From Actinoallomurus sp. (GTDB lineage Bacteria; Actinomycetota; Actinomycetes; Streptosporangiales; Streptosporangiaceae), in the NCBI GenBank assembly GCA_025964625.1, contig JAOPYL010000204.1:1-41903 (forward strand): a DNA stretch of 41,903 nucleotides. The letters run 5' to 3'. Position 1 is the stretch's first letter. Each line of letters opens with the position of its first letter. The position numbers and the translations under genes are program-made. Positions 6,430 through 39,861 of the stretch are shown one piece after another. The notes below the pieces were generated by a model. That model saw only the letters and a program-made list of their open reading frames with translations. It did no database searches and was not told the DNA's origin.

Positions 6430-6532
6430 GAGCCCTCCGCGTCGTCTGTGGAGGGCTCCCGCGCGGAAACGTCCCCGAGAAGGCGTACGGCCCCTGAACA
6501 CCTGCGCGCCAGGGGCCGTCTCGGGGCCTTGG

Positions 6533-6910
6533 TCATGTCGCCGTCGAGCTGCCCCGTGCCTGGGTCGCACCCCACACGCCGACGATAGCCGCGACGCCGC
6601 CCGCGATCCATGCCGTCCAGGCCGCGGCGTTCTCGCCGGTGAACCCGAAGGCCCATGGTGAGATGAAGATCAGCACCGCGAAGGCCGTGGCGGTCCATGT
6701 CGACGGCCCGACGGCCGACAGGAGCGCGTACAGGCCCGCCAGGGCGAGCAGGGCGCCCAGCACCATCAGAGGCTGCTTACCCGCGTTGTCCGCCCACAGC
6801 CCGGGCGCGAGAAGCGCGGCAAGACCGGCCACGAACGCAACGCCGCCCTGCCAGGAGAAGTTACCCATCCGCCACCTCCAGGGGGTTCCGGTTTGGAGGT
6901 ACTTGTCCAT
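6533..6910 (-). CDS. SPW-repeat integral membrane protein
   Basis: This 125-residue protein has about four hydrophobic segments in two repeats. The second contains the family motif in FISPWAFGFTGENAAAW; the first is degenerate (ALLAPGLWADN). The SPW family has no established biochemical function and is typically a small membrane protein. The start at 6910 (MDKYLQTG) is chosen over the longer frame from 6967 because the longer one would run through the palindromic operator. Another possible start is the internal Met of MGNFSWQGG. It is probably the first gene of an operon with the TetR gene. Confidence 0.85.
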   Translation of the reverse strand: MDKYLQTGTPWRWRMGNFSWQGGVAFVAGLAALLAPGLWADNAGKQPLMVLGALLALAGLYALLSAVGPSTWTATAFAVLIFISPWAFGFTGENAAAWTAWIAGGVAAIVGVWGATQARGSSTAT

Positions 6911-6926
6911 CTTAGGGATTCCCTGA

Positions 6927-6942
6927 TTGACCGACCGGTCAA
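6927..6942. promoter_or_regulatory. palindromic operator, probable TetR site
   Basis: TTGACCGACCGGTCAA is an inverted repeat (TTGACC, four bases, GGTCAA) located 17 bases upstream of the SPW-gene ATG on the minus strand. Its size and GACCG/CGGTC core resemble known TetR-family operators. The nearest regulator is the TetR gene two positions downstream in the same direction, so autoregulation is the simplest reading. Confidence 0.7.
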
Positions 6943-7017
6943 GCGCTCCTGATGGATGGGCCGCCATGGCCGCCGAGGTACATCTGCCTAGCCCGCGAGC
7001 TCTTGGCGACCGGCCTG

Positions 7018-7242
7018 TTATGGCATCTGCTTGGCCCGCTCGGCGGCCTCGCGCAGCGCGTCGGCCATCGGCGGCACCCGATCGGGATCGTAAAGCAGGA
7101 TGAATTCCCGCTCCTGCCCGTTCTCATCCGCCGCGGTGACCTGGTGCACGACCACCGGGGCGTCGATCACAAGGTCCTTAGTCGAGATATCCATGCGGCC
7201 TACACCGATGTCGACCCGGCGGGCGAAGAGTTTGTCCGGCAT
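7018..7242 (-). CDS. small hypothetical protein
   Basis: A 74-residue product with a plausible protein-like composition: a beta-rich first half (DLVIDAPVVVHQVTA, EREFILLYDP) and a C-terminal amphipathic helix (ADALREAAERAKQMP). No family is recognised. No strong ribosome binding site precedes ATG 7242; the internal Met at about 7194 is an alternative. It is on the same strand as the SPW/TetR genes, upstream of the palindrome. Confidence 0.5.
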   Translation of the reverse strand: MPDKLFARRVDIGVGRMDISTKDLVIDAPVVVHQVTAADENGQEREFILLYDPDRVPPMADALREAAERAKQMP

Positions 7243-11783: not shown

Positions 11784-13031
11784 ATGCACACCACCCTCGC
11801 AGTGATCGCCGGCCTCATCGGTGTGACGATCATCGCGCTCACGACCGCGTCCGCTCTGCAGACGTTCGTGGTGCCCCGTGGCACGCCGCTGCTCCTCACA
11901 CGGTGGGTGCTGCTGGCCGTCCGCGCCGTCTTCATACTGTCCATGCGCCACTTGCGGGACTACTCCACCCGCGACCGCGTCATGGCCATGTTCGCCCCGA
12001 CCGGGCTGATGACGCTGCCGGTCGCCTGGATGACCCTCCTCCTCATCGGTTTCGTGCCCCTCTACTGGGCCTTTGGGAGCGGCTCATGGAAGGACTCGCT
12101 CCTCGCCAGCGGCTCCGGGTTGCTGACGCTCGGCTTCCACGCCCCGGACAACCTGTGGACCGGTGTGCTGTCGATCATCGAAGCGGGTTTCGGACTGGGC
12201 CTCCTGGCACTGCTGATCAGTTACCTGCCGTCGATCTACAACTGCTACTCCCGGCGCGAACAACGCGTCACCGCGCTTGAGGTGGAGGCCGGATCGCCAC
12301 CGTTCGCGCCGAACCTGCTCGTACTGCTGCTTCAGATCAAAGGACTGCCACTCCTCCACACGTACTGGTCGGCCTGGAGGCACTGGTTCAACGACATTGA
12401 GGAGACCCACTCCACAACACCGATCCTGGTGTACTTCCGCTCTCCCGCACCCGAACGATCATGGGTGACCGCGGCCGGCGCCGTCCTGGACTCCGCGGCA
12501 CTCGCCGTCTCCGTCCTGGACGTGGACAAGCCGCAGCCGGACGCCGAACTCTGCATCCGCTCCGGTTATCTCGCGCTCCGCCGCATCGGCGACTACTTCC
12601 TCATGCCGTACGACCCCGACCCAACCCCCGACCTCCCCATCGCCATCACCCGAGAGGAGTTCGACGAGGCATGCCAGCGCCTCGCCGACGCCGGCGCCAC
12701 GCTCAAGGCCGACCGTGACCAGGCGTGGCACGACTTCGCCGGTTGGCGCGTCACCTACGAAGGCCCCCTGCTGCGGTTCGCCTCACTTTGCATGGCACCG
12801 CCGGCACCATGGTCATCCGACCGGCCCATCCACTTCAACCGCCTCCCCGTCACCCGGCGCCACGCGCGAGCCCGGCTACACACTCACCGCGGCAAGCGGC
12901 TCGTTCCTGACCGGCCGCTGCCCGCCGTGCACGACGTTCCCCGATCACGCCCCCATCCGGGGTCGAGCGCTGGCAGGCGTTCTCGCTTTTCCTCGCTTCT
13001 CCGCGGACGAAGCACAAGATCGACGCGCTGA
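11784..13031 (+). CDS. ion-channel-like integral membrane protein
   Basis: A 415-residue product. Residues 1-160 have four hydrophobic segments (LAVIAGLIGVTIIALTTA; WVLLAVRAVFILSM; PVAWMTLLLIGFVPLYWAF; IIEAGFGLGLLALLISYLPS). A pore-like loop GLLTLGFHAPDN occupies the place of a potassium-channel filter but without TVGYG. A cytoplasmic domain of about 190 residues follows, ending near MAPPAPWSSDRP. The last 67 residues are Arg/Pro/Ser-rich with no family character and look like read-through past a lost stop or a shifted frame. ATG 11784 begins directly before the first membrane helix; the frame upstream looks non-coding. Ion selectivity cannot be assigned. Confidence 0.75.
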   Translation: MHTTLAVIAGLIGVTIIALTTASALQTFVVPRGTPLLLTRWVLLAVRAVFILSMRHLRDYSTRDRVMAMFAPTGLMTLPVAWMTLLLIGFVPLYWAFGSGSWKDSLLASGSGLLTLGFHAPDNLWTGVLSIIEAGFGLGLLALLISYLPSIYNCYSRREQRVTALEVEAGSPPFAPNLLVLLLQIKGLPLLHTYWSAWRHWFNDIEETHSTTPILVYFRSPAPERSWVTAAGAVLDSAALAVSVLDVDKPQPDAELCIRSGYLALRRIGDYFLMPYDPDPTPDLPIAITREEFDEACQRLADAGATLKADRDQAWHDFAGWRVTYEGPLLRFASLCMAPPAPWSSDRPIHFNRLPVTRRHARARLHTHRGKRLVPDRPLPAVHDVPRSRPHPGSSAGRRSRFSSLLRGRSTRSTR

Positions 13032-13183
13032 AACAACCTCTGCGACAGCCCATTGGGGAGCCAGAGCCCTCCGCGCCGGCCGACGCGGCCACCAGCGCGG
13101 GCGCGCGGCAACAGGCCCGCAGCGCCCCGGAGAGGCCATGGAGGGAGCCGAGTTCGTGGCCCTTCGCGGACGGAACCCAGGCG

Positions 13184-13381
13184 TCATCTGCTGGGCTGTG
13201 GAACCCTGCAGGAGACGCTCGGGTCGAGGCCCACGTAGTTGAGCGGACCGGAGATTATCGTCACGCCGATCGTGGCGGACTTGGCGCAGCTGGCGTCGAA
13301 GTGGGAGTAGTAATGGCGCTGCTCCGCGGCGAGTCCCCCGATGATCAGCCAGACGACGACCAGCGACGGTCCGGCCCGCAT
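13184..13381 (-). CDS. small secreted or membrane peptide (65 residues)
   Basis: The product begins with a hydrophobic helix (MRAGPSLVVVWLIIGGLAA) followed by a short outside part with two Cys (DASCAKSATIGVT ... DPSVSCRVPQPSR) and the segment ISGPLNYVGL. Very similar small proteins, with the ending C-x-VPQPS, are widespread in actinobacteria and have no known function. ATG 13381 has an excellent ribosome binding site, GGAGG six bases upstream, which strongly supports this start over longer frames. The two Cys could form a disulfide. Convergent with the channel-like gene and divergent from the pentapeptide-repeat gene. Confidence 0.75.
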   Translation of the reverse strand: MRAGPSLVVVWLIIGGLAAEQRHYYSHFDASCAKSATIGVTIISGPLNYVGLDPSVSCRVPQPSR

Positions 13382-15299: not shown

Positions 15300-15327
15300 T
15301 TGACAGGCGCGAATCGCGTGGGATAAA
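15300..15327 (+). promoter_or_regulatory. promoter of the eight-gene ABC operon
   Basis: A perfect -35 hexamer TTGACA (15300-15305) is followed after 16 bases by GATAAA (15322-15327, four of six matches to TATAAT). Transcription would start within the palindrome at 15328-15348. This is the clearest sigma-70-type promoter in the window. Confidence 0.65.
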
Positions 15328-15348
15328 CCTTACGAAACTTTCCTAAGG
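15328..15348. promoter_or_regulatory. ROK-like palindromic operator overlapping the start of transcription
   Basis: A 21-base palindrome, CCTTAcGAAA-c-TTTCcTAAGG, with 9 of 10 base pairs matching, lies directly after the -10 element and overlaps the ribosome binding site AAGGA (15345-15350 region) of the binding-protein gene. Its GAAA/TTTC core with TTA flanks resembles operators of ROK-family repressors. The operon encodes a ROK regulator, so autorepression is likely. Confidence 0.7.
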
Positions 15349-15356
15349 AAGATTCC

Positions 15357-16742
15357 ATGCAGCTCACCTCGCGTAGGCAGTTCCTCAAACAGGCCGGGCT
15401 CGCGGGCCTGGTCATGGGGGCGCCTCCGCTCCTTTCGGCCTGCGGTCCCGGTCGACGTGTGGTGCGGGGCGGCAAGCCGCTGACGCCCCCTACCGCCGGC
15501 CACGCCCAGCTGAGCATGCGGATCTGGGGTGCTTATCCCGACTTCGTGACCAAGCAGGTCGCGGGGTACGAGCAGGCGTACGGCGACCACGTCGACCTGG
15601 GCGTCATCGCGGGCGACTACCCCTCGCTGCTCACCAACCTGCTCCGCCAGGACACCCACATCGACATGGCGTACAGCCTCTGGCACATGCCGCAGGCCTA
15701 CTCCGAAGCCGGGTGGATCCACGACTACGAGCGCTTCTGGGCCAAGGAGGACGCGGAGCGGGAGATGTTGCCGGCCGTGCGCAAGGCCCTCACCATCAAC
15801 GGGCGCCTGATCGGACTCCCGTACTTCGCTTTCGTCAATGGCGCGTTGTTCGCGAATACCGACGTGCTCAGGAAGGCGAACCTTGAGGGGCAGTATCCCA
15901 AGACCTACGACGAGCTCTACGATCAGGTAAGGCTCATCAAGAAGCGCGGGGCGAGCGACACGCCCTACCTGCCATCGTTCTGGTCCGCGCCGTGGTTCGG
16001 GATTCCCTTTGGTTTCATCCAGGAAGCGCTGAACAGAAACATCCCTCTGTTCGGCAACGGTGGCGAGCCGCTGTTCGACGAGAAATCTCAGGTCGTCGAC
16101 ATGCTGCGACAGTGGCGTGCTCTGTATCGGGAAAGGCTCGTACCACAGGGCGTGCTGACGTTCCAGGAATCGGACTGGACCGAGGCGTTCGCCAAGGGTG
16201 GCATCGCCTACTCACCTCAGCTTCAGTACGACATCAAGACCTTCGCGACTCCCGGCAGCTCGCAGGTGGTCGGCAAGATTGTCCCGGTGCCCCAGCAGGG
16301 CCAGAAGTGGGGGATGTTGCATATCGGCGCCTATCTCATCGGCAATTACGGACAGAGCGACGCCCAGCTCGCGCAGGCCTACAACCTCGCGCAGCACTTC
16401 GGCTACCGGAACCGCAGGACCAACAAGTTCGAGGTGCCGACCGCATGGGCGAGCAACTACTACCTGACGCAGGGCTACGCCGCCGTCAACGAGAGCCCGG
16501 AGGTGGCCGCAGCCGTTGCCACGTGGCTCCCCGACCCTGAGAAGAACTGGCCGGTCCTGAAGGATTATTTGGCGAACCCGCAGGTCGCCACCGAGCTGTT
16601 CCACACCTCGTGGGGACCGATGTGGATGAATTATGCCTCACACGAGCTGCCCAAGGCTGTAGACGGCAGCGAGGACCCCAAGACGGTTGTGCGGAATCTC
16701 CGCACCAAGGCCGAAAGCCTGTTCAATGACTTCGGACACTAG
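15357..16742 (+). CDS. ABC importer solute-binding lipoprotein (Tat-exported)
   Basis: A 461-residue family 1 extracellular binding protein. The N-terminus has a twin-arginine signal (SRRQFLKQAGLAGLVMG) followed by a lipobox, LLSAC, so it would be exported folded and lipid-anchored. Later segments such as PYLPSFWSAPWFGIPFG and the C-terminal GPMWMNYASHELP are typical of sugar-type binding proteins. AAGGA sits about six bases before ATG 15357. It is the first gene of the operon and, as usual, determines import specificity; many aromatic residues suggest carbohydrate or glycoconjugate binding. The ligand cannot be named from sequence. Confidence 0.92.
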   Translation: MQLTSRRQFLKQAGLAGLVMGAPPLLSACGPGRRVVRGGKPLTPPTAGHAQLSMRIWGAYPDFVTKQVAGYEQAYGDHVDLGVIAGDYPSLLTNLLRQDTHIDMAYSLWHMPQAYSEAGWIHDYERFWAKEDAEREMLPAVRKALTINGRLIGLPYFAFVNGALFANTDVLRKANLEGQYPKTYDELYDQVRLIKKRGASDTPYLPSFWSAPWFGIPFGFIQEALNRNIPLFGNGGEPLFDEKSQVVDMLRQWRALYRERLVPQGVLTFQESDWTEAFAKGGIAYSPQLQYDIKTFATPGSSQVVGKIVPVPQQGQKWGMLHIGAYLIGNYGQSDAQLAQAYNLAQHFGYRNRRTNKFEVPTAWASNYYLTQGYAAVNESPEVAAAVATWLPDPEKNWPVLKDYLANPQVATELFHTSWGPMWMNYASHELPKAVDGSEDPKTVVRNLRTKAESLFNDFGH

Positions 16743-17679
16743 GGCCGTGACGACCGCGGTGGGCGGCGTCGCACCCCCCAGGGTGCCATTCAGCTCGCGG
16801 CGGACCCCGACGGGGTTCGGCATGCTCTTGGTCGCCCCGGTGGTGCTGCTGCTGCTCGCGATCGTCGCCTATCCCATCGGGTACTCGCTCTACCTGAGCG
16901 TCATGGCGACCAACCCCATCACCGGCTCGCAGCATCTGGTCGGTATCGCCAACTTCCGGGCAGCGCTCACCAGCGGCGACTTCTGGCATGCGGCCGGGCT
17001 CACCCTCTACTACGTCATCTGCGTGACCGTGATCGGAACCGGCGTGGCGCTGGGCATGGCCCTGCTGCTGCGGGAGCGTTTCGTCGGCCGGCCCGTTCTC
17101 ATGGCGGTGATCGTGTTGCCGTGGTCGCTGTCCACGTACGCGGCAGGCGTGGTGTGGCGCTACGTCTACAGTCCGCAGTACGGCCTCCTCGCGGGAATCG
17201 CACAGCACCTCGGGCTGCATCCCTTCGACTTCCTGTCGAAGCAGGCGGTCATCCCCTCGCTGGCGATCGTCCATGCCTGGCAGTTCGCGCCGTTGGGGAC
17301 GTACTTCCTCCTGGCCAGCCTGCAGGTCATCCCCGACGACCTGTACAAGCTTGCCAAGGTCGACGGTATGGGGATGGCGAAGCGGTTCCGCAACATCACG
17401 TTGCCGCAGATCCGTATGCCGCTCGCCATCTTCCTGGTGTTGATCGGCGGGCAGGCGGCGACGGCCTTCGACCTGATCTACTTCCTGACGTCGGGTGGTC
17501 CCGGTGACGCGTCGCAGACGCTCACCTATGACGCCTACCAGCAGACCTTCCAGGACCAGGACTTCGGCGGCGGCTCGGCCACATCGTGGTTGCTGCTCGT
17601 CCTTGTGACCGTCGTCACGGTGGGCTACTACGCGGTGGCGATGTCGTCGTCGCGGCGGACCCGAAAGGCATCGTCATGA
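16726..17679 (+). CDS. ABC importer permease (MalF type)
   Basis: A 317-residue membrane protein with about six helices and the inner-membrane permease signature KVDGMGMAKRFRNITLPQIR (EAA loop) that docks onto the ATPase. ATG 16726 lies inside the end of the binding-protein gene (stop 16740-16742), so translation is coupled. The N-terminus has an extra 25-30 polar residues before the first helix (MLLVAPVVLLLLAIVAYPIG), as in MalF/UgpA-type subunits. It pairs with the next gene. Confidence 0.92.
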   Translation: MTSDTRAVTTAVGGVAPPRVPFSSRRTPTGFGMLLVAPVVLLLLAIVAYPIGYSLYLSVMATNPITGSQHLVGIANFRAALTSGDFWHAAGLTLYYVICVTVIGTGVALGMALLLRERFVGRPVLMAVIVLPWSLSTYAAGVVWRYVYSPQYGLLAGIAQHLGLHPFDFLSKQAVIPSLAIVHAWQFAPLGTYFLLASLQVIPDDLYKLAKVDGMGMAKRFRNITLPQIRMPLAIFLVLIGGQAATAFDLIYFLTSGGPGDASQTLTYDAYQQTFQDQDFGGGSATSWLLLVLVTVVTVGYYAVAMSSSRRTRKASS

Positions 17680-18536
17680 GTACGCGTCGCCGGGTCGTCC
17701 TGCATCTGCTCGCTCTGCTGGCGCTGGTGTGGACCATCGCCCCGCTGGCCTGGATCCTGCTGATCTCGCTGACCTACCACCACGAGTTCGCGTCGTCGAC
17801 CATTCATCTGTTGCCGCACCAGCCGACGCTCGCCAACTACGTGCGGCTGTTCGGCCGCAGTGCGGCGGACTGGAACGGGACGATCCAACCGCCCAACGCC
17901 TATGGGCCGCTGATCCGCAGCGGGCTGGTCAACAGCGCGGAGGTAGCGGTCGCGGTAACCGTGCTCAGCATGGTCTTCGCGGTTCCGGCCGCCTATGCGC
18001 TGGCGCGCGTGGACATGCGGTTCCGGCAGGCCGGCCTGCTCACCATCGTGGCGACCCGCGCCCTGCCGCCCGTCGCCACGACCATCCCCTTTTTCGTGCT
18101 CTACCAGACCCTGGGCCTGTCCGGCACTCGCCTGGGTCTGGTCATCGCGCACCTGACGATGACGGTTCCGCTGCTGGTGTGGATGGGAACCAGCTTCTTC
18201 GGCGGACTGCCGCCCGGGTTGGAGCGCATGGCGCGGGTCGACGGGTGCTCTCGGTGGCGGGCGTTCACCCGGGTGGTCGTGCCCGCGTCGCGGCACGCGA
18301 TGACGGCCATGGCGGTGATCGCGTTTCTGACCTCGTGGGACGAGTTCACCTTCGCACTGATCTTCAACACCGGAACGTCGGCCCAGACCTTCCCGCCCGC
18401 ACTGTCGAGCATGTTCTTCCAGGTGTCGGTGCCCACCGAGGTGGCGAGCGCGACGGTGCTCGGCCTCCTGCCCCCGCTGGTCATCGCGACCCTTTTCCAG
18501 CGTTACATCCGCAAGGTCAACCTTGTCGGTCTCTAG
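17676..18536 (+). CDS. ABC importer permease (MalG type)
   Basis: A 286-residue permease with an N-terminal helix (LHLLALLALVWTIAPLAWIL), a large periplasmic loop (about residues 35-85), and the EAA loop RMARVDGCSRWRAFTRVVVP. ATG 17676 overlaps the preceding TGA as ATGA. It is the second half of the heterodimeric channel. The loop with NGTIQPPNAYGPLIRSGL after a LANYVRLF-type segment is normal for carbohydrate uptake class 1 systems. Confidence 0.92.
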   Translation: MSTRRRVVLHLLALLALVWTIAPLAWILLISLTYHHEFASSTIHLLPHQPTLANYVRLFGRSAADWNGTIQPPNAYGPLIRSGLVNSAEVAVAVTVLSMVFAVPAAYALARVDMRFRQAGLLTIVATRALPPVATTIPFFVLYQTLGLSGTRLGLVIAHLTMTVPLLVWMGTSFFGGLPPGLERMARVDGCSRWRAFTRVVVPASRHAMTAMAVIAFLTSWDEFTFALIFNTGTSAQTFPPALSSMFFQVSVPTEVASATVLGLLPPLVIATLFQRYIRKVNLVGL

Positions 18537-18580
18537 ATCCGGTGATCTCTCGTGGACAAAGCTATGAGGACAAGCAGGCT

Positions 18581-19696
18581 ATGAAGACGAGCAATGTAGG
18601 CGTCGCTATCGACGCAGTGAGCAAGCGCTACAAGTCGGCGAAACAGCCGGCCCTGGACGGCGTGACGCTGGACATCCGCCCGGGCGAGCTGCTGGCCCTG
18701 CTCGGTCCCTCGGGGAGCGGCAAGACCACGTTGCTGAACGTGCTCTCCGGACTGGAATCGGCCGACGACGGGCGCATGCTCTTTGGCGACCAGGACGTGA
18801 CCGACATCCCGGCGGAGCGGCGCAGTGTGGCCGTGGTCTTCCAGTCGTCGATGCTCTACCCGCACATGTCGCTGCGCAAGAGCATCGCCTTCGCGCCTCG
18901 CCTGAACAAGGTGCCCGATGCCGAGATCGAGCAGCGCATCGCCGATATCACGGGGTGGCTGCACATCGCTCATCTGCTGGACCGCCGTCCCCATGAGGTC
19001 TCCGGCGGCGAGCGGCAGCGCGCGGCCATCGCGAAAGCGCTGGTCTCCCGGCCCGCCCTGCTGCTCATGGACGAGCCCTTCTCCGCCGTCGACGCGCAAT
19101 TGCGCCGCCAGCTGAGGAGTGAACTGGTCAAGTTGCACCGGGAGTTCGGCACGACGACCGTCTTCGTCACGCATGACCAGGAGGAGGCGATGGCCATCTC
19201 CGACCGCGTCGCGGTGATGCGCAATGGGCGCCTGGTGCAGGTGGACGAGCCCCTCGAGCTCTACCGGTCGCCGGTGAACGCGTGGCTGGCCGACTTCGTC
19301 GGCGTGCAGCCGATCAATGTGCTGCCGGTGCGACGTTCGCCGTCCGGCGACACGTTGCAGACCGCTGACGGCGAGCTGACCCTCAAGCCCGAGGGCCGCG
19401 CATTCCCGGATGTGCTGGACCTCGGTGTCCGGCCGGAGCACATCAAGATCATTGCCAGCGGCTCGGCCTCACCACTGCGCGTCTACACGCGGGAGGTGGT
19501 CTCCGGCCAGATGAAGTACACATTGCGTACCGACCAGGGCACGGAGATCGTCGCCATCCGTGGCAGCGACGACGTGCTGGACATCGACACTCCGGTCGAC
19601 GTGGCCGTCGACTGGCGGCACGCGATCGCGTTCGACTCGACCACAGGCGAGCGTCTCGACGTGAACCTGGCGAAGGGAACCGCAGGTGTTTCTTGA
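18581..19696 (+). CDS. ABC importer ATPase (MalK/UgpC type)
   Basis: A 371-residue ATPase with Walker A GPSGSGKTT, Q-loop VVFQSSMLYPHM, signature VSGGERQR, Walker B LLLMDEPFSAVD and H-loop VTHDQEEAM. It has a C-terminal TOBE-type regulatory domain of about 130 residues (GVRPEHIKI). Many actinomycetes use one shared MsiK for sugar importers; a dedicated ATPase in this operon suggests a self-contained system. ATG 18581 has GAGGA upstream. The gene overlaps the next by 11 bases. Confidence 0.93.
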   Translation: MKTSNVGVAIDAVSKRYKSAKQPALDGVTLDIRPGELLALLGPSGSGKTTLLNVLSGLESADDGRMLFGDQDVTDIPAERRSVAVVFQSSMLYPHMSLRKSIAFAPRLNKVPDAEIEQRIADITGWLHIAHLLDRRPHEVSGGERQRAAIAKALVSRPALLLMDEPFSAVDAQLRRQLRSELVKLHREFGTTTVFVTHDQEEAMAISDRVAVMRNGRLVQVDEPLELYRSPVNAWLADFVGVQPINVLPVRRSPSGDTLQTADGELTLKPEGRAFPDVLDLGVRPEHIKIIASGSASPLRVYTREVVSGQMKYTLRTDQGTEIVAIRGSDDVLDIDTPVDVAVDWRHAIAFDSTTGERLDVNLAKGTAGVS

Positions 19697-20903
19697 CCTT
19701 CTGCGCCGTCGTAACCCGGCGCTGCTGCAGGCGGCCGCCGACCTGGCGATCCAGCGCCGCATCCCGCCCAACTCCTACGTGCTCGACCTCGACGCGATCC
19801 GCGCCAACGGGTCGGTCATTCGCGAAGAGGCGGACCGGCTCGGCCTCAAGCTGTACTTCATGACCAAGCAGATCGGCCGCAATCCGCTGGTCACGGCCGC
19901 CCTCGTCGAGGAGGGCCGGCCGGAGACGGTGGCCGTCGACATCGCCTGCGCGAACGCCCTGAGCGGGCACGGCTTCAAGCTCGGGCACGTCGGCAACCTC
20001 GTGCAGACGCCGCTGATCGACATCCCCCGCATCGTCGGACTCCGGCCCGAGGTCATCACCGTCTTCTCGGTCGACAAGGCGCGCCAGATCGCCGAGGAGG
20101 CCCAGCGGCAGGGCATCACCCAGGGGCTTCTCCTGCGCGTGTCGGACCGCGAGCGCGACGTCTACCTCGGGGGCATGGAGGGCGGCATCGAGCTGTCGGA
20201 CCTGAGGACGGCGGCGCGGGAGATCGCGGCCCTGTCCGGGGTCCGCATCGACGGCGTGACCACGTTCCCCGCGCTCGCCTACACCGAGGTGGGGGAGGCG
20301 AAGCCGACGCCCAACTTCGAGACGCTGCTCCGCGCCCGCGATGTCCTCGAAGAGCTCGGCATCGCCGTACGCCAGCTCAACGCGCCCGGCAACACCTCGG
20401 TGTTCACGCTCGGACTCCAGGCGAAGATGGGCGCCACGCACGTCGAGCCGGGCCACGGTTTCCTCGGGACGACACCCTTCCACCTGCGCCACGAGCTGCC
20501 CGAGGTGCCGGCCGCGTGCTACGTCACCGAGGTCGCGCACGAGGTCGGTGACCGCGCGTACGTCTACGGAGGCGGCTTCTTCGTCGACGACCCGATGTGG
20601 CTGGACCCCGACTTCCAGCGCTACGCGCTCGTCGGGCGTACGACCGAGGAGCTGATGGAGCACCGCGTGCCATTCCGCGGGGCAGGGTCGGGAACGACCG
20701 GCGGCTTCGGCGGCATCGACTACTACGGGTTCATCGACCGTGCCGGCGACGCGGTCCGAATCGGCGCGACTGTGGTCATGGGCTTCCGGGTCCAGTCGTT
20801 CGTGACGCGGGCGAACATCGCCGTGGTCAGTGACTGCGAGACCGAACCACGGCTGCACGGGGTGTTCGACCAGGCCGGCAACCGGATCGAGTTGTATGCC
20901 TGA
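19686..20903 (+). CDS. YhfX-like PLP-dependent enzyme (alanine racemase fold)
   Basis: A 405-residue fold-type III PLP protein. The Schiff-base lysine is Lys61 in YFMTKQIGRNP, and the barrel continues with DIACANALSGHGFKLGHVG, and GHGFLGTTPFHL near the phosphate site. The C-terminal domain has GAGSGTTGGFGGIDYYGF. It fits the YhfX/D-threonine-aldolase/racemase group, which acts on D- or L-amino acids, rather than the cell-wall alanine racemase, which is shorter and lacks these motifs. GTG 19686 overlaps the ATPase stop. In this operon it probably racemises or cleaves an amino acid released by the deacylase at 22997. The reaction is inferred. Confidence 0.8.
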   Translation: MFLDLLRRRNPALLQAAADLAIQRRIPPNSYVLDLDAIRANGSVIREEADRLGLKLYFMTKQIGRNPLVTAALVEEGRPETVAVDIACANALSGHGFKLGHVGNLVQTPLIDIPRIVGLRPEVITVFSVDKARQIAEEAQRQGITQGLLLRVSDRERDVYLGGMEGGIELSDLRTAAREIAALSGVRIDGVTTFPALAYTEVGEAKPTPNFETLLRARDVLEELGIAVRQLNAPGNTSVFTLGLQAKMGATHVEPGHGFLGTTPFHLRHELPEVPAACYVTEVAHEVGDRAYVYGGGFFVDDPMWLDPDFQRYALVGRTTEELMEHRVPFRGAGSGTTGGFGGIDYYGFIDRAGDAVRIGATVVMGFRVQSFVTRANIAVVSDCETEPRLHGVFDQAGNRIELYA

Positions 20904-22026
20904 GGTCCGCACCGCAGACCGCGGTGACGTGCGGGACATCAACCTGCGCGCCGTCTTGGAGGTGCTGCGCGCGGTCGGCGCCACCACCCGGGCCCAGATC
21001 GCCCGCGAGACAGGCCTGAGCGCCCCCACCGTGTCCGCGGTCGTCGCGGCCCTCACCGAAGCCGGCATCGTCGCGAGCGCGGGCGTCGGTCCGTCCACCG
21101 GCGGCCGGCGTGGCGACCTGATCGAGTTCCGGCCCGACGCGCGGCTGGTCTTCGCCCTCGACCTCAGTGCCGATCCGCCATGCGCGGCGCTGGTCGATCT
21201 CAGTGGTTCCATCGTGGACGGCTCGCGCGTCACCGTGCCCGGGTCGGGGCTGTCCGGACCCGATGAGCTGGTGACGTGGGTCCAGCGCCGGGTGCGCGAG
21301 GCGGCCGGCGTCATCGGCATCGGTGTCGCGGTACCGGGAGTCACCGATCCGGTCGCCGGTGTCATCGACTGGGCGCCGAGCCTCGGGTGGCGTCACGTCC
21401 CCCTGCGCGCGGCCCTCGAAACAGCCGTACCCGAGGTCATCGTCGCCATCGACAACGACCTCAACCTCGCGACGCTGGGCGAGTACGCCTACGCGCCGGA
21501 AAAAGCGCAGGATCTGGTCATGATCGGCCTGCGTGGAGGGCTCGGCGCCGGCGTCATGCTCGGGGGCTCCCTTCACCGCGGCGTGCACTTCGCGGCGGGG
21601 GAGATCGGTTACCTGCCCGTGCACTCCAGTGTGCGCGGCAGCCGTGACTTCGGCGAGCTGGAGACCACCGTCTTGGCCCGCCTTGGTAAGCACGGATCCG
21701 GCCGCCACGCTTCCGCGCGGCAAGCCGAGACCACGTCGGACGGAACGGGCGTATTGGGCGCCGGGGAGGGCGAAGTCGTTGATCTGCTCGCCTTCGCGTG
21801 TGTGGCCATCGCCGCCGTGCTCGACGTGGCCGCGATCGTCTTGAGCGACGAGGTCGTCCAGCAGCGCGCCGATCTTCCGGGAGAGATCGCCCGGCGCCTT
21901 GCCGAGTCGCTGCCTCATCCACCTCAGGTCATCGCGTCCCAGCTTGGCGCGGAAGGCACGTTGCAAGGTGCCGCGGTCGCCGTACAACAGCGGCTCACGC
22001 TCAAGATCCGGCGGTTGCTCACATGA
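20896..22026 (+). CDS. ROK family transcriptional regulator lacking the zinc site
   Basis: A 376-residue protein with an N-terminal winged helix (LRAVLEVLRAVGATTRAQIA, GLSAPTVSAVVAALTEAG, then STGGRRGDLIEF), followed by a ROK sugar-kinase-like domain (GIGVAVPGVTDP, IDNDLNLATLGEY, GLGAGVMLGG). Classical ROK proteins carry an ExGH motif and a CxCGxxGC zinc site after it. Here the segment reads GEIGYLPVHSSVRGSRDFGE: His is Tyr and all the Cys are gone. The kinase activity is probably lost and ligand sensing may differ. ATG 20896 overlaps the previous stop. It is the likely binder of the palindrome at 15328-15348. Confidence 0.87.
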   Translation: MPEVRTADRGDVRDINLRAVLEVLRAVGATTRAQIARETGLSAPTVSAVVAALTEAGIVASAGVGPSTGGRRGDLIEFRPDARLVFALDLSADPPCAALVDLSGSIVDGSRVTVPGSGLSGPDELVTWVQRRVREAAGVIGIGVAVPGVTDPVAGVIDWAPSLGWRHVPLRAALETAVPEVIVAIDNDLNLATLGEYAYAPEKAQDLVMIGLRGGLGAGVMLGGSLHRGVHFAAGEIGYLPVHSSVRGSRDFGELETTVLARLGKHGSGRHASARQAETTSDGTGVLGAGEGEVVDLLAFACVAIAAVLDVAAIVLSDEVVQQRADLPGEIARRLAESLPHPPQVIASQLGAEGTLQGAAVAVQQRLTLKIRRLLT

Positions 22027-23000
22027 TCTGTATCGGCGTCGACGCCGGCGGCACGAACTCGCGGTGTCTCGTGACCGACGCGCATGGAGCCGTCCGTGCG
22101 CACGTGACCGGGCCGGGCGCGAACCTGCACCAGTACGGCATCGACAACACCGCACGCAGCGTCGCGGGCTTGGTACACGAGGCGCTGGCCCGTGCGGGGG
22201 ACCACCAGCGCGAGGTCCACGCCGCCGTGTGCGTGGCCGGCCTCGACACCGACGCGTCACGTGAGCGACTGGATACGGCACTGCGCGCGATCGATTCGTC
22301 GATCCGCTGGCAGTCCGCGAACGACGCGCTGGCCGCCTGGTACGGCGCGTTCGGCACGGAGCGCTCGGGGGTCATCGCCATAGCGGGCACGGGTTCGGCC
22401 GCGTACGCCCGCAATGGCGAGTGGGAGGCACGCGCCGGCGGCTGGGGCGCGATGCTGGGTGACGAAGGCAGCGGGTACGACCTCGGCCGACGCGGGCTCA
22501 TCGCCGTTCTGCGTGCCCACGACCGCATCGGCCCCGCCACGTCGCTGCGGGGCGCTGTCCTCGGGCGGCTCGGACTCGACCGCCCCGAGGCCATCATCGA
22601 TCACCTGCACTTCCACATGGCTCCCGCCGATGTCGCCGCCCTGGCGCCGGTCGTGCTGGGCTGTGCGGCGGAGGGAGATCCGGTCGCAGAGGAGCTGGTC
22701 GACGCGGCGGCCGCGTCGCTGATCGAGATCACCGCGGGTGCGGCTTCGGCCGTGGGCCTCGGCGAGGCGGAGGAACCGCTGTTCGCGCTCGTTGGCGGGG
22801 TGGCCCGCGATCCGTTCTTCCGAGCCGCCGTACGCCGCCGGGCCGGGCGCGGGGACCGGCCGCTGCGCTGGCACGAGGCGGGCGCGCCCCCGGTGGCCGG
22901 CGCGGTCTACCTGGCGATGAGCGGCGCCGGATTCTTCAGCGCGATCCAGCACGACTTCGGTCAGCTGGAACTCGAGGCGACGTCGAGACGGAGACAATGA
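22023..23000 (+). CDS. BadF/BadG-type kinase, N-acetylglucosamine kinase-like
   Basis: A 325-residue ASKHA-fold protein with phosphate 1 motif GVDAGGTNSRCLVTD, phosphate 2 region GVIAIAGTGSAAYARN, and GDEGSGYDLGRRGL, the signature shared with eukaryotic NAGK and bacterial MurNAc/GlcNAc kinases. It lacks the iron-sulfur cysteines of BadF activases. A sugar kinase for an amino sugar is therefore the best reading. ATG 22023 overlaps the ROK stop (ATGA), and its own stop overlaps the next start the same way, so the three are translationally coupled. Confidence 0.83.
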   Translation: MICIGVDAGGTNSRCLVTDAHGAVRAHVTGPGANLHQYGIDNTARSVAGLVHEALARAGDHQREVHAAVCVAGLDTDASRERLDTALRAIDSSIRWQSANDALAAWYGAFGTERSGVIAIAGTGSAAYARNGEWEARAGGWGAMLGDEGSGYDLGRRGLIAVLRAHDRIGPATSLRGAVLGRLGLDRPEAIIDHLHFHMAPADVAALAPVVLGCAAEGDPVAEELVDAAAASLIEITAGAASAVGLGEAEEPLFALVGGVARDPFFRAAVRRRAGRGDRPLRWHEAGAPPVAGAVYLAMSGAGFFSAIQHDFGQLELEATSRRRQ

Positions 23001-24658
23001 TGCAACTGGACCTGATCATCCGCGATGGCACGATCGTCGACGGAACCGGAGCGCCGCGCTTCGTGGCCGACGTCGGGGTCACGGGCGGCCGAATCACCTA
23101 CATCGGTTCCTTGCCGGAGGACCTCGCCGCGTCCCGCGAGATCGACGCGGCGGGGAAGATCGTCTGCCCGGGGTTCATTGACATCCACAGTCACTCCGAC
23201 TTCGTGCTCGCCGATCCCGAGCACGACGACATCCTGGGCTGTTTCCTGCGCCAGGGCATCACCACCCTCGTGACGGGCAACTGCGGATTCGCCCCTGCCC
23301 CGGTCGCTCCGGAGTTCGCTGCCGAGATGCACTCCTACACCTCGTTCCTGCGCTCGGCGGGGACTCGGCCGCATTGGCCGACGATGGGGAAGTACCTCGA
23401 CGAACTCGAGGCGGGCGGCGTCGCGCTGAACGTCGTTCCGCTCGCCGCACACGGTGCGCTGCGCATCGCGGTGATGGGCTTCGCGCGACGGTCGCCGGAC
23501 GCCACCGAGCGCCGGCGGATGCGCGACTTGCTCGCCGAGTCCCTCGATGCGGGATGTTTCGGCATGTCCGCGGGTCTGGCCTACGCGCCCGGCATGTACG
23601 CCGAGACCGACGAAGTAACCGAACTCGCCAAAGTCGTCGGCGCGCAGGACGGTCTGTTCACCTGCCACAGCCGGGGATTGTCCGAGACGCTGGTCGACGC
23701 GGTCGCGGAGGTCATCGACATCTCGGCGTACGGCGACGTCCGCGCGCAGTTCTCCCACCTGTGCGCACTCGGCGAGGCGAACTGGCCGCGCATCGGTACG
23801 GCGATCGAACTACTCGACAACGCCCGCAAGCGCGGTATCGATGTGGCGACGGACTGCCAGGCCTACATCGCCGGCAACACGACACTGGCCGCTCTCCTGC
23901 CACCGTGGGCGCTGGAAGGCGGCATGCGGGCCGCGGCCGAGCTGCTGGCCGACCCGGCGGGGCGGAAACGCGTCCGCCGCTCGATCGAGGACACCGGCCC
24001 CACCTGGCCCGTCCCGCCAGGGGGCTGGACGGACAACATGATCGGCTCGCTGGGTTACGACAACATCTGGTTGCTCACCATCGGCGCGTCGGAGTACAAG
24101 GCCTACGAAGGCATGTCGCTCGCCGAGATGGGCGAGCGCACCGGCCGCGGAGCGTTCGACGCGACGATGGACCTGATCGTCGCCGACAGCGGTCAGACCA
24201 TGATGCTGGTGGTCGGGTCGGCGGGCAGCATGAGGTCCGACGCGCCGTTGCGGGACATCCTGCGCCTGCCGTACACCGCGCTCGAGACGGACGCCATCAT
24301 CACCGGGAACGGAACGCCCAACCGCGGTGCGCTCGGTGCCTATCCCCGCATGCTGGGTCATTTCGTGCGCGAGGAGCGTTTGCTGTCGTTGGAGCAGGCC
24401 GTCCACCAGATGACCGGACTGGCCGCCGACCGCATCGATCTGTCCTCGGTGGGCCGTCTGCGCGCGGGTGCCGCCGCCGACATCGTGGTCCTGGACTTCG
24501 ACCAGGTCGGCGACACGAGCACATACTTCGACCCGGCTGGTGCACCCCGCGGAATCGAGTACGTGCTTGTGAACGGCGTGCCCGTTGTCGACAGCGGCCG
24601 TTACCAGGCGGCGCGGGCCGGTCATGTCTACCGACGCCAGGGATCCGGAGCGGCATGA
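22997..24658 (+). CDS. N-acyl-D-amino-acid deacylase family amidohydrolase
   Basis: A 553-residue amidohydrolase of the D-aminoacylase type. Metal site features are His64/His66 in IDIHSHSDF, Cys96 in GNCGFAP (the position of the bridging Cys of characterised D-aminoacylases), His224 in FTCHSRG, and His254 in QFSHLCA. SAGLAYAPGMY is a further family motif. Near 408-415 the usual catalytic Asp region reads GSAGSMRSDAP. The family hydrolyses N-acyl-D-amino acids to D-amino acid and fatty or short acid; some members act on dihydropyrimidine-like or amide substrates. It is the last gene of the operon, followed by a strong terminator. It would act after import, on the N-acyl bond. Confidence 0.88.
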   Translation: MMQLDLIIRDGTIVDGTGAPRFVADVGVTGGRITYIGSLPEDLAASREIDAAGKIVCPGFIDIHSHSDFVLADPEHDDILGCFLRQGITTLVTGNCGFAPAPVAPEFAAEMHSYTSFLRSAGTRPHWPTMGKYLDELEAGGVALNVVPLAAHGALRIAVMGFARRSPDATERRRMRDLLAESLDAGCFGMSAGLAYAPGMYAETDEVTELAKVVGAQDGLFTCHSRGLSETLVDAVAEVIDISAYGDVRAQFSHLCALGEANWPRIGTAIELLDNARKRGIDVATDCQAYIAGNTTLAALLPPWALEGGMRAAAELLADPAGRKRVRRSIEDTGPTWPVPPGGWTDNMIGSLGYDNIWLLTIGASEYKAYEGMSLAEMGERTGRGAFDATMDLIVADSGQTMMLVVGSAGSMRSDAPLRDILRLPYTALETDAIITGNGTPNRGALGAYPRMLGHFVREERLLSLEQAVHQMTGLAADRIDLSSVGRLRAGAAADIVVLDFDQVGDTSTYFDPAGAPRGIEYVLVNGVPVVDSGRYQAARAGHVYRRQGSGAA

Positions 24659-24734
24659 ATCCCGACCTGTGACCCCTACCGACCCGGCGGGCGATCCCGG
24701 ACTCCGGTCCGTCCCCGCACCGGGTGAGTACAGC

Positions 24735-24754
24735 GCGGGTCACCGGTGACCCGC
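24735..24754. repeat. perfect 20-base palindrome between deacylase gene and terminator
   Basis: gcgggtcacc is followed immediately by its exact complement ggtgacccgc. It lies 77 bases after the deacylase stop and 12 bases before the terminator stem. It may be a second hairpin of the terminator or a binding site for a dimeric regulator. Confidence 0.75.
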
Positions 24755-24765
24755 ATCAACGGAAC

Positions 24766-24798
24766 GAGACGCCCCGGCCGACCCGGCCGGGGCGTCTC
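24766..24798. terminator. strong terminator of the ABC operon
   Basis: A perfect 15-bp GC-rich stem (left arm gagacgccccggccg, 24766-24780) with a 3-base loop and the right arm at 24784-24798. No T-run follows. It separates the operon from the glycerol-phosphate operon. Confidence 0.85.
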
Positions 24799-24855
24799 GC
24801 CGTCTTGGGCGTCTCCGCGCCGGGTCATGCACGCCGGTTTCCCGCCGTCCCCCAT

Positions 24856-30652: not shown

Positions 30653-33268
30653 GTGAGAAGGAAAAATCGGGCGACACGAGGGGCTTTGCGGGTCCCGGCC
30701 CTCACGGTGGTGACATGTCTCGCGCTGGTGACGAGCCTGGTCGGCACGGCTTCCGCGCAGCAGGCGACCGCAAGTGCTGCGAACCCCCAGTGCCCCTGGG
30801 TGGGCTCGACGGCACCGGTGGGTCAGCGGGTCGCCGCGGTCATGGCGAAGATGACGCTCGATGACAAGATCGCGATGGTGCACGGCGCGGGTGGGTCAGC
30901 CTACGTCGGCTATGTCCCGCCCAATCCGGGACTGTGCATACCCGCCCTCAAGCTGGAGGACGGTCCGGCCGGCGTCGCTGACGGGATGACGGGCGTCACC
31001 CAGTTGCCGGCCCCGGTGGCGGGTGCTGCCAGCTGGGACCCGGCGCTCATGAAGACCTATGGTTCGGTGATCGGGTCGGAGGAACGGGGGAAGGGCGCCA
31101 ATGTCGACCTGGGTCCCACGGTCAATATAGTGCGCGACCCCCGCTGGGGACGTTCATTCGAGTCGTTGGGCGAGGACCCGTATCTGGCCGGCCAGGTCGG
31201 TGCCTCTGACATCGAGGGCATCCAGCGGCAAGGCGTCATGGCTCAGGTCAAGCACTGGGACGTCTACAACCAGGAGACCTACCGCAACACTCCGGCCGAC
31301 GACGCCAACATCAGCGACCGAGCGATGCATGAGATCTACATGCCCGCCTTCGAGCCGGCGATCAAGCAGGCGCACGCCTCCTCGGTCATGTGCTCCTACA
31401 GCACGGTGAACGGCCACTACGCGTGCGAGAACGCCTACCTGCTGGGCGACGTGTTGAAGAAGGACTGGAACTTCCCCGGGTTCGTGACCTCGGACTGGGG
31501 CGCCACGCACTCCACCGCCGACTCGGCGAACAACGGCCTTGACATGCAGATGCCGGACGACAGCTACTTCGGCGCCCCGCTGAAGCTGGCCGTGCAGGCC
31601 GGCCAGGTGCCCGCAGCCCGGTTGAATGACATGGTCAGCCGGATCCTGACCGAGGAGTTCCGCTTCGGGCTGTTCGACCACGCGCCGGTCGGCTCGCCCG
31701 GTGCCGTCGTGACCACCTCGCACCATGCGGCGGTCGCGCGCGACATCGCCGAGCAGGGCACCGTGCTGTTGAAGAATTCCGGTGGGATCCTGCCGTTCAC
31801 CGGCAAGGCCCATTCGATCGCAGTCATCGGCGACGACGCCGGCAAGGGCGCGATGAGCGCGGGCGGCGGCAGTGCCAGCGTCCAGGCTCCCCACGTCGTG
31901 ACGCCGTACCAGGGCATCGCCAAACGGGCCGGATCCGGCGTCAAGGTGACCTACGCCCAGGGCAATTCCAGTGGCACCCTCCCGGCGGTACCGTCGCAGT
32001 ACCTCACCCCGTCACAGGGCACTGGGAACGGTCTGACCGGCCAATACTTCAACAACATGAACCTGTCCGGTACGCCGGTGCTGACCCGCGCCGACGCGAA
32101 CATCGACAGCGACTTCGGCGGGAACTCGCCCGGACCGGGGGTGAACGCCACGGGATGGTCTGTCAAGTGGACCGGAACACTGACCGCGCCCACGACCGGC
32201 CGCTACACCTTCTCGCTCACCAGCGACGACGGCAGCCGGCTGTTCCTGAACGGTCAGAAGGTCATCGACAACTGGCGTGACCAGGCGCCGACCACCGAGA
32301 CCGGCACGGTCGACCTCACCGCCGGCCAGCCGGTGAAGATCGAGGTCGACTACTACCAGAATGGTGGTGGCAGTTCGGTGACACTGGGCTGGCAGCCGCC
32401 GAACAGCGGTTCACTGCTCGACCAGGCGGTCGCCGCGGCCAAGTCCGCCGACGTGGCGGTCGTCTTCGCCAGCAAATTCGAGAGCGAGGGCGGCGATCTG
32501 GCCGACATCAACCTCTCGGACGACCAGAACACGCTCATCTCCGCCGTCGCGGCGGCGAACCCGAAGACCATCGTGGTGCTCAACACCGGCAGCGCGGTCA
32601 CAATGCCATGGGTCGACTCCGTCAAGGGCGTGCTCGAGGCGTGGTATCCGGGTCAGGAGGACGGTAACGCGATCGCCTCGGTGCTCTTCGGAGACACCAA
32701 CCCCTCCGGCAAGCTGCCGGTGACATTCCCGAAGAGTCTGAACGACGTTCCGGCCTCCACCCCGGCCCAGTGGCCCGGCGTCGGCGGCAAGGTCCAGTAT
32801 TCCGAGGACCTACTCGTCGGCTACCGCTGGTATGACACGAAACACATCGTGCCGCTCTTTCCGTTCGGCTACGGCCTGTCGTACACCGACTTCGCGTTCA
32901 GCCATCTGGTCGTGGCGCCGAACAGGCTCACCCCGTCGGGGCATGTCACCGTGGGCGCCAGCGTGACGAACACCGGTGAACGTGCGGGTGCGGAGGTCGT
33001 TCAGGTCTACGTCGGCGACCCGGCCAGTACCGGTGAGCCGGCCCGTCAGCTCAAAGGATTCCGCAAGATCGAGCTGGCACCGGGCCAGACCAGCCGTGTG
33101 ACGTTCCAGCTCGACGCCCGGGCGTTCTCCTCTTGGGACACCACCGCGCACACCTGGAAACTCAACAGCGGTACCTACCACGTGATGATCGGCGACTCGT
33201 CGGCGAACCTGCCCGTGTCCGGCCCGCTCGTCATCACGTCGAAGTCGGGTGCCACGCCCATCAAGTGA
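30653..33268 (+). CDS. secreted GH3 glycosidase with PA14 domain
   Basis: An 871-residue exported enzyme. Residues 1-36 are a Sec signal peptide (VPALTVVTCLALVTSLVGTASA). The GH3 barrel spans about 60-360, with the nucleophile Asp281 in GFVTSDWGATHS. A PA14 carbohydrate-binding insertion lies at about 455-590 (GLTGQYFNNMNLSGTP ... FSLTSDDGSRLFLNG). The second GH3 domain resumes with a Glu-rich acid/base region (SKFESEGGDLADINLSDDQ), and a fibronectin-III-like C-terminus ends the protein. The usual KHF motif is KHW (Lys200-His201-Trp202) with DVYNQET after it, an uncommon variant. GTG 30653 follows AAAGGAGG by eight bases. Likely a beta-glucosidase or related exo-glycosidase. Confidence 0.9.
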   Translation: MRRKNRATRGALRVPALTVVTCLALVTSLVGTASAQQATASAANPQCPWVGSTAPVGQRVAAVMAKMTLDDKIAMVHGAGGSAYVGYVPPNPGLCIPALKLEDGPAGVADGMTGVTQLPAPVAGAASWDPALMKTYGSVIGSEERGKGANVDLGPTVNIVRDPRWGRSFESLGEDPYLAGQVGASDIEGIQRQGVMAQVKHWDVYNQETYRNTPADDANISDRAMHEIYMPAFEPAIKQAHASSVMCSYSTVNGHYACENAYLLGDVLKKDWNFPGFVTSDWGATHSTADSANNGLDMQMPDDSYFGAPLKLAVQAGQVPAARLNDMVSRILTEEFRFGLFDHAPVGSPGAVVTTSHHAAVARDIAEQGTVLLKNSGGILPFTGKAHSIAVIGDDAGKGAMSAGGGSASVQAPHVVTPYQGIAKRAGSGVKVTYAQGNSSGTLPAVPSQYLTPSQGTGNGLTGQYFNNMNLSGTPVLTRADANIDSDFGGNSPGPGVNATGWSVKWTGTLTAPTTGRYTFSLTSDDGSRLFLNGQKVIDNWRDQAPTTETGTVDLTAGQPVKIEVDYYQNGGGSSVTLGWQPPNSGSLLDQAVAAAKSADVAVVFASKFESEGGDLADINLSDDQNTLISAVAAANPKTIVVLNTGSAVTMPWVDSVKGVLEAWYPGQEDGNAIASVLFGDTNPSGKLPVTFPKSLNDVPASTPAQWPGVGGKVQYSEDLLVGYRWYDTKHIVPLFPFGYGLSYTDFAFSHLVVAPNRLTPSGHVTVGASVTNTGERAGAEVVQVYVGDPASTGEPARQLKGFRKIELAPGQTSRVTFQLDARAFSSWDTTAHTWKLNSGTYHVMIGDSSANLPVSGPLVITSKSGATPIK

Positions 33269-33292
33269 CCTGAGCGCGCGGTTGCTTCGACC

Positions 33293-33325
33293 GGTGGGCC
33301 CGCGGTACGACACCGTGGGCCCACC
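33293..33325 (+). terminator. terminator after the first GH3 gene
   Basis: A 14-bp stem (ggtgggcccgcggt pairing with accgtgggcccacc, one G-U) closes a 5-base loop, 24 bases past the GH3 stop. It suggests that the two GH3 genes are transcribed separately. Confidence 0.75.
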
Positions 33326-33426
33326 ACGTAACCGGTCCAGGTCCTGAATCCGCGTCAACGAGATCCGATCGCCTCCCTTGACACGTCAGGAAAACCTTTG
33401 CACGCTCAGATCACCTCCGTACGGCG

Positions 33427-38693: not shown

Positions 38694-38928
38694 CCGCTCC
38701 ACCTCGGCGTCAGGCCCCTTTCGAACCGGTGAGTTGTCGCATGGTCTCAGTCGCGGCCTGTGCATTTGGCCGCTCGTACATCCATGCCGAAGAGCGGGAC
38801 TTGTAATTTCGCAGGTGCTGCCCGCGATGCAGGCCGGCAATGCCGATTTCCACAGCTGACCGTCGGCGCGAGGGACGCAGCCGGGTCGCCCGTCCATGGG
38901 CGGCGCGGCTGCAGCAAGGAGAACAGTG

Positions 38929-39792: not shown

Positions 39793-39861
39793 GGTGCTCC
39801 ATCGAGGACGGGGCGGCGACTCAGACGGCGATCTCGCCGGTACACATCGGAAGGGAAGAGC

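Follow-up and report, generated by a model that had tools for sequence, protein, structure and literature searches.

What is the function of an operon that encodes a sugar-type importer, a hexosamine-type kinase, an amide hydrolase and a pyridoxal 5'-phosphate (PLP) enzyme of the D-amino-acid type? We addressed this question for eight genes on contig JAOPYL010000204.1 of Actinoallomurus sp. (C298 in our set), which belongs to one draft genome of 5.84 Mb in 375 contigs. The whole contig, 41,903 nucleotides long, was analysed and is called the window. The initial annotation had proposed that the eight genes form one catabolic unit, and the sequence supports this. As read from it, the parts are a sugar importer whose binding protein has a twin-arginine (Tat) signal, a YhfX-like PLP enzyme, a ROK regulator with a palindrome at the promoter, a hexosamine kinase and a hydrolase with an intact metal site. 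The operon probably takes up a sugar-like compound and cleaves an amide bond within it. More tentatively, we propose that the unit is under ROK control and breaks down an amide conjugate of an amino sugar, a reading that we favour but place somewhat short of probable. No described pathway with this gene set was found in the open-access literature (judged from listings), as the initial annotation had also stated.

Layout and control of the operon

The eight open reading frames are intact, all lie on the forward strand and together span positions 15357–24658. The features of the operon are as follows.

15300–15327, forward: putative promoter, TTGACA–16 nt–GATAAA (elements at 15300 and 15322), read by eye, below the scan threshold
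15330–15346, no strand: putative ROK operator TTACGAAACTTTCCTAA, a near-perfect palindrome 10 bases before the first gene, from a motif search
15357–16742, forward: solute-binding protein of an ATP-binding cassette (ABC) importer, Tat signal, SBP_bac_8 (Pfam/NCBIfam)
16726–17679, forward: ABC importer permease 1, UgpA-like, BPD_transp_1 (Pfam/NCBIfam)
17676–18536, forward: ABC importer permease 2, GlcU/MalG-like, BPD_transp_1 (Pfam/NCBIfam)
18581–19696, forward: ABC importer ATPase, UgpC/MalK-like, ABC_tran and TOBE_2 (Pfam/NCBIfam)
19686–20903, forward: YhfX-like PLP enzyme, GTG start, of a clade outside yhf operons (Ala_racemase_N and YhfX-like_C; tree; model)
20896–22026, forward: ROK-family transcriptional regulator, winged helix-turn-helix plus ROK, NagC-like (HTH_24 and ROK)
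22023–23000, forward: BadF/NAGK-type hexosamine kinase (BcrAD_BadFG; closest structures; motifs)
22997–24658, forward: D-aminoacylase-like amidohydrolase, metal site kept, alpha-carboxylate anchors changed (Amidohydro_3; alignment)
24765–24799, forward: G+C-rich hairpin with a 16-bp stem and no T-run, likely transcript end

The junctions measure, in gene order, −17, −4, +44, −11, −8, −4 and −4 bases. Six of the seven are overlaps, and the sole intergenic gap is the 44 bases upstream of the ATPase gene. These coordinates confirm the co-directional, overlapping arrangement given in the initial annotation, and the families that it named (importer, YhfX, ROK, BadF/NAGK-like kinase and D-aminoacylase-type hydrolase) hold as well, every Pfam domain listed above being above its gathering score. 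Judged from sequence, the eight genes are a real operon that belongs to a recurring design. The single promoter and the strong terminator of the initial annotation fared less evenly. The promoter can be read by eye, but a sigma-70 promoter pattern scan gave no site upstream of the operon. The terminator stem is present, but without a T-run, and the terminator scan did not list it.

The palindrome is the sole match to itself in the window at up to three mismatches, where 0.03 are expected and 3 of 100 shuffles had one. Across the 5.84-Mb genome it occurs at five places at up to two mismatches, the window site included, and a reversed-palindrome control gave no genome match at that threshold. 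At two of the four other sites (L089 and L092), as read by eye, an apparent ROK regulator gene starts beside the palindrome and an apparent sugar-binding protein gene lies near it; the remaining two (L091 and L093, also by eye) have other genes alongside. The palindrome thereby fits a ROK operator and is treated here as a putative one. With a ROK regulator that has a helix-turn-helix domain and a palindrome at its promoter, the locus has the make-up predicted for a ROK-regulated operon.

The YhfX clade and its neighbourhoods

The YhfX-like protein matches Ala_racemase_N at 52.2 bits (cut-off 24.1) and YhfX-like_C at 62.3 bits (cut-off 27); an NCBIfam search gave no match for it. The structure of E. 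coli YhfX (4kbx) matches residues 1–401 at E 1.1e-69, with 36% identity in the structural alignment. On both domains and the full-length match, we assign the protein to the YhfX family. Lys61, within the stretch MTKQ, is invariant in 20 of 20 YhfX sequences and is likely the PLP lysine. A structure model built from 20 sequences had a mean predicted local distance difference test (pLDDT) score of 88.4. Its first structural neighbour was 4kbx, then came D-threonine aldolases and a beta-hydroxyaspartate aldolase, and further neighbours included alanine racemases, decarboxylases and D-threo-3-hydroxyaspartate dehydratase (E from 2e-15 to about 1e-12). As a prediction, the model does not choose among a racemase, an aldolase and a dehydratase. 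YhfX is present in E. coli and its structure has been solved; in the open-access literature, judged from listings, we found no study assigning it a function, and none on the function of yhfS, yhfT, yhfU or yhfW.

To place the window operon, we mapped 40 YhfX loci: the window, 22 genome contigs, 7 further genomes and 10 plasmids. The plasmids are 10 of 19 records with YhfX, leaving out H9–H13 (Aminobacter), H16–H18 (E. coli) and H19 (Vibrio). The scan of genome contigs catches close relatives of YhfX only and is not exhaustive. Neighbouring genes were called with 28 reference proteins (tblastn, E 1e-10) up to 11 kb from YhfX where the sequence extends, and absences mean little on the short contigs L011, L014, L027, L031 and L082. 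A locus with YhfS or YhfW was defined as a yhf operon, giving 20 yhf operons and 20 other loci including the window. The tree holds 38 of the 40 loci; L028 and L087, with YhfX below 300 amino acids as translated, were counted in the map and omitted from the tree. L085/L071 (a partial YhfX in G727) is in neither. The L033 gene was counted as ROK, although it apparently starts without the helix-turn-helix and may be a kinase (read by eye).

One branch of the tree parts the yhf-operon set from the other set (support 95/93; 97% of bootstrap trees), and the neighbourhoods on its two sides differ; the Fisher p values given here are guides only, the loci being related and not independent. Besides the window, a ROK protein is found at 14 of the 19 non-yhf loci versus 1 of 20 yhf operons (p = 1e-5), Rbs-type importer genes at 15 versus none (p = 1.5e-7) and a hydrolase at 12 versus none (M20 at 9, an AS-type amidase at 3; p = 1.3e-5). 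NagB or a NagB-II-like SIS gene is found at 8 versus 2 (p = 0.03), an amino acid permease at 3 (L032, L033 and L053) versus 1, and a ROK kinase at 2 versus none. The ROK protein, Rbs importer and hydrolase occur together at 11 of the 19. The initial annotation had suggested searching for co-occurrence across genomes. By function it is there, with YhfX of the same clade beside ROK, a sugar ABC importer and an amide hydrolase at these 11 loci; the exact set is not, since neither a BadF kinase nor a window-type, D-aminoacylase-like amidohydrolase was found at any of the 39 other YhfX loci in the DNA examined.

The window YhfX falls in a five-member set (support 97/95) with L009 and the Bacilli loci L010–L012, whose gene order is ROK-YhfX-amidase-RbsC-RbsB-RbsA. 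Alphaproteobacterial plasmids carry clusters of the order ROK-M20-RbsB-RbsC-YhfX-RbsA, for example in Ruegeria sp. TM1040 (L054) and Nitratireductor (L050). Both kinds of cluster share with the window the side of the YhfX tree, a ROK protein, a sugar-type ABC importer and an amide hydrolase; unlike the window, they draw the importer and the hydrolase from other families and have no BadF kinase. We found no paper on them in the open-access literature. The window operon looks like a version of this recurring design with swapped modules, and the presence of YhfX in similarly built operons of other phyla hints that the enzyme serves amino-sugar breakdown. The yhf operon of E. coli and Clostridium (yhfU-T-php-S-X-W) also has a YhfX-family PLP enzyme, but across the supported branch, and no match to YhfS, YhfT, YhfU, YhfW or Php lies within 11 kb of the window YhfX, which leaves the window outside that group.

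At L010 (Paenibacillus sp. BSR1-1), YhfU- and YhfT-like matches lie at about 19300–20600, 9–10 kb past a YhfX of the second clade, so that parts of both designs are nearby. In L087 (Rhizobium sp. RCAM05350), several genes of a ROK-M20-Rbs-YhfX cluster are fragmented, including YhfX.

Close relatives of the window genes are rare. At E 1e-20, a search of 149 genomes of relatives gave YhfX in 4 and a search of 396 genomes of the phylum gave it in 5, the own genome counting once in each; the 7 other genomes of the genus had no match. The own genome has a second YhfX on C6 (L031), 44% identical, after a broken or split NagB-II-like SIS gene. For the amidohydrolase, 394 genomes of the class were searched at E 1e-90; 14 of them, the own genome among these, carry relatives, which are 36–41% identical. 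Eleven of their regions were examined, from 10 of the 13 other genomes (G165, G301 and G318 were left out) and from C54 of the own genome, and none matched YhfX, BadF, ROK, M20, SIS or NagB (E 1e-10). Among 335 genomes of the class, neither the kinase (E 1e-35) nor the binding protein (E 1e-30) had a match besides the window's own, and for this reason the contexts of their relatives gave no hint.

The kinase, the hydrolase and the proposed route

The closest solved structure to the kinase is the N-acetylmuramic acid (MurNAc)/N-acetylglucosamine (GlcNAc) kinase 8zo3. The protein has the stretches NDA (with the catalytic Asp), GTGS and GGWG-GDEGS, and its BcrAD_BadFG domain together with NDA and GGWG-GDEGS assigns it by sequence to the BadF/NAGK hexosamine kinases. 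It resembles NagK and MurK of the BadF family in domain, catalytic motifs and closest solved structures, but its score against the NagK NCBIfam model, 100 bits, falls far short of the 370-bit cut-off.

Amino-sugar phosphate enzymes appear at other YhfX loci. NagB is above the TIGR00502 cut-off in L012 and L013 and below it in L083 (213.6 of 236.9 bits). The SIS proteins of L051 and L032, the two that were scanned, match NagB-II glucosamine-6-phosphate deaminase best, below its cut-off. In L013 (Clostridium sp. OS1-26) the NagB gene, at 12590–13324, follows yhfW. That a yhf operon contains such a gene is a hint of a possible link between amino-sugar phosphates and the entire YhfX family. In the own genome, contig C361 has adjacent NagB-like and NagA-like genes, both below their NCBIfam cut-offs. 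A search of the open-access literature for BadF, glucosamine kinase and amidohydrolase together gave nothing relevant (judged from listings), and the accessible part of a paper on mycobacterial MurNAc recycling (PMC13041923) has no bearing on the operon.

The amidohydrolase matches 9g5m, N-acyl-D-glutamate deacylase, D-aminoacylases and PpOngB. In the four printed alignments, residues 2–4 to 297 and from about 406–420 to the end align, and the stretch between is unaligned. The metal site of PpOngB comprises Cys97, His222, His252, an HxH pair and the catalytic Asp, as given in the accessible part of PMC12017989, and the window protein keeps the ligands H64, H66, C96, H224, H254 and D432. The same text states that Lys254, Tyr285, Ser291 and Arg379 of PpOngB hold the substrate's alpha-carboxylate and are strictly conserved in the D-aminoacylase and OngB groups. 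The window protein was aligned to 12 relatives and to parts of 3gip and 1m7j. In the window protein the anchors are changed: Lys to Cys256, Tyr to Gln288, Ser to Asn294, and HPR to NRG with the Arg one place off. Among the 12 relatives, Tyr and the Arg of HPR are kept in 12, Ser in 10 and Lys in 9, and the relative on C54 of the same genome (L067) retains all four. Because the metal ligands are kept and the anchors changed, activity is expected, but scarcely towards an ordinary N-acyl-D-amino acid, although a shifted loop could rescue part of the carboxylate anchoring. The label N-acyl-D-amino-acid deacylase, given in the initial annotation, and with it an N-acyl-D-amino-acid substrate, is doubtful on this alignment.

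One relative is in an ong-like setting: at 8684–12720 of L060 (G245, same class) it stands beside an apparent D-serine-dehydratase-type PLP gene and a PfkB-type kinase gene, and its metal Cys is replaced by Asp.

From these parts, we infer a substrate, a YhfX reaction and a role for the kinase. The importer would bring in an N-acyl or aminoacyl amino sugar, and the amidohydrolase would split its amide. The BadF kinase would phosphorylate the amino sugar released, and the NagB-like enzyme encoded on C361 would convert the hexosamine phosphate to fructose-6-phosphate. YhfX would racemise or otherwise convert the freed amino acid, and the presence of the sugar would release ROK from the palindrome. 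If the substrate of the amidohydrolase is not an N-acyl amino acid, a change in the residues that anchor a free alpha-carboxylate is to be expected. Elsewhere in the clade, Rbs-type importers, M20 or AS-amidase hydrolases, and NagB or SIS deaminases would take over the corresponding steps.

A wider claim is less likely, and we consider it doubtful: that this YhfX clade marks an undescribed pathway for amide conjugates of amino sugars in Actinomycetota, Alphaproteobacteria and Bacilli, which recruited three unrelated hydrolase families (M20, AS amidase and amidohydrolase) and two importer families, and that the D-aminoacylase of the window has turned amino-sugar amidase. If true, it would be an example of a D-aminoacylase scaffold changing substrate. 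One YhfX clade in sugar-import operons with ROK and exchangeable amide hydrolases offers a concrete candidate substrate class and a route to the reaction.

Several observations weigh against an amino-sugar conjugate as the substrate class. The exact gene set is without a second example among the loci examined, and chance assembly in one draft genome is possible. No NagB or SIS gene lies in the window operon itself; such a gene is at 8 of the 19 other loci only, and its contrast with the yhf operons is weak. Over 21 kb, L009, whose YhfX is the closest to that of the window on the tree, shows an M20 gene but neither a ROK nor an importer match; L033 and L053 lack a hydrolase and an Rbs importer match, and L086 lacks a ROK or M20 match. 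The Lys anchor is likewise missing from three of the 12 hydrolase relatives (L060, L062 and L064), two of which (L062 and L064) are without the Ser as well. The YhfX model is nearest to D-threonine aldolases, with alanine racemases close behind, and we are aware of no member of this YhfX clade with a known substrate. Finally, 12 of the 20 yhf operons hold a gene annotated as 'amidase family protein' in L056 (Cetobacterium somerae, 5994–7022), with homologues in 11 others. It was left out of the hydrolase count because it matched no Pfam (E 1e-5) or NCBIfam (1e-10) family. If the annotation is right, amide hydrolases accompany YhfX in both clades and the hydrolase contrast vanishes.

Competing explanations

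The alternative that survives best, though unlikely, resembles the marine Ong route. The imported compound would be an N-acetyl aldonic acid, either N-acetyl-D-glucosaminate derived from oxidised chitin or one of its epimers. The amidohydrolase would deacetylate it, YhfX would then deaminate or cleave it, and the BadF kinase would phosphorylate the product. In the accessible part of PMC9537276, OngB is a D-aminoacylase-like GlcNAc1A deacetylase, followed by the PLP deaminase OngC and the sugar kinase KdgK. The window has the same hydrolase superfamily with a PLP enzyme, a sugar kinase and a repressor, as does the ong pathway in what is available of PMC9537276 and PMC12017989. The nearest folds to YhfX include D-threonine aldolase and D-threo-3-hydroxyaspartate dehydratase, enzymes of 3-hydroxy-D-amino acids, of which glucosaminate is one. 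The gene company of the L060 hydrolase relative, read by eye, points the same way. There are also differences: compared with the accessible descriptions in the same two papers, the window has an ABC importer in place of a sodium symporter, YhfX in place of OngC, BadF in place of KdgK and a ROK regulator, and the carboxylate-holding residues described for PpOngB (PMC12017989) are changed. No RidA or PfkB domain was found by Pfam among the operon proteins. BadF kinases are known to act on ring sugars rather than on 2-keto-3-deoxygluconate (KDG), which also counts against this route. When YhfX was compared by profile with the dehydratase-type protein of L060, the alignment was non-significant (probability 0.3 of 100), a weak result from one template sequence without a positive control. 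Judged on hydrolase anchors, a PfkB-type KdgK and RidA, the operon falls outside the ong (GlcNAc1A) pathway, and we rejected filing it there on the changed anchors and the kinase family.

A further reading, close to that of the initial annotation, is that the operon scavenges N-acyl-D-amino acids and that YhfX racemises the D-amino acid once it is released; it seems to us quite improbable. The hydrolase family fits it, alanine racemase is among the nearest YhfX folds, and M20 and amidase partners stand at other YhfX loci. Yet the carboxylate anchors are changed, on which ground we rejected it as the first-choice filing; the C54 relative keeps all four, as if the job were already taken, and the sugar-type importer and hexosamine kinase would be superfluous.

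Uptake of cell-wall fragments is a weak rival and very unlikely. A MurNAc-peptide would be cut at the lactyl amide, BadF would phosphorylate MurNAc, and YhfX would handle the peptide's amino acids. The closest solved kinase is named a MurNAc/GlcNAc kinase, and human NagK phosphorylates muramyl dipeptide, according to the accessible part of PMC10465942. However, no MurQ-type etherase was found by Pfam among the operon proteins, and the kinase has the NagK pattern of Asn before the catalytic Asp and GGWG, whereas the available description of Tannerella MurK gives Thr94 and S133-P134-L135 (positions matched by hand).

Least probable of all is a chance operon, in which a unit of YhfX, ROK and importer would have picked up the kinase and amidohydrolase although the parts serve no common pathway. 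In its favour, the exact set has turned up a single time, and the genomes searched have few or no close relatives of the window YhfX, kinase and binding protein. Against it, the genes overlap tightly and an amide hydrolase of another family stands beside YhfX at 12 of the 19 other loci.

Other genes of the window are noted here. At 38896–40971 there are an apparent GNAT acyltransferase gene (no NCBIfam match at 1e-6) and an o-succinylbenzoate synthase gene (NCBIfam, above cut-off). The same pair, 43% and 62% identical, is also in L065 near an anchor-keeping amidohydrolase relative. The o-succinylbenzoate synthase family also includes N-acylamino-acid racemases. Two large adjacent genes at 30653–35538, which we take to be glycoside hydrolase family 3, resemble beta-glucosidases/beta-xylosidases, all below NCBIfam cut-offs. 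The next gene downstream of the operon, at 24869, encodes a DeoR-type regulator and opens another unit, which includes an apparent flavin adenine dinucleotide (FAD)-linked oxidase and a glycerol kinase.

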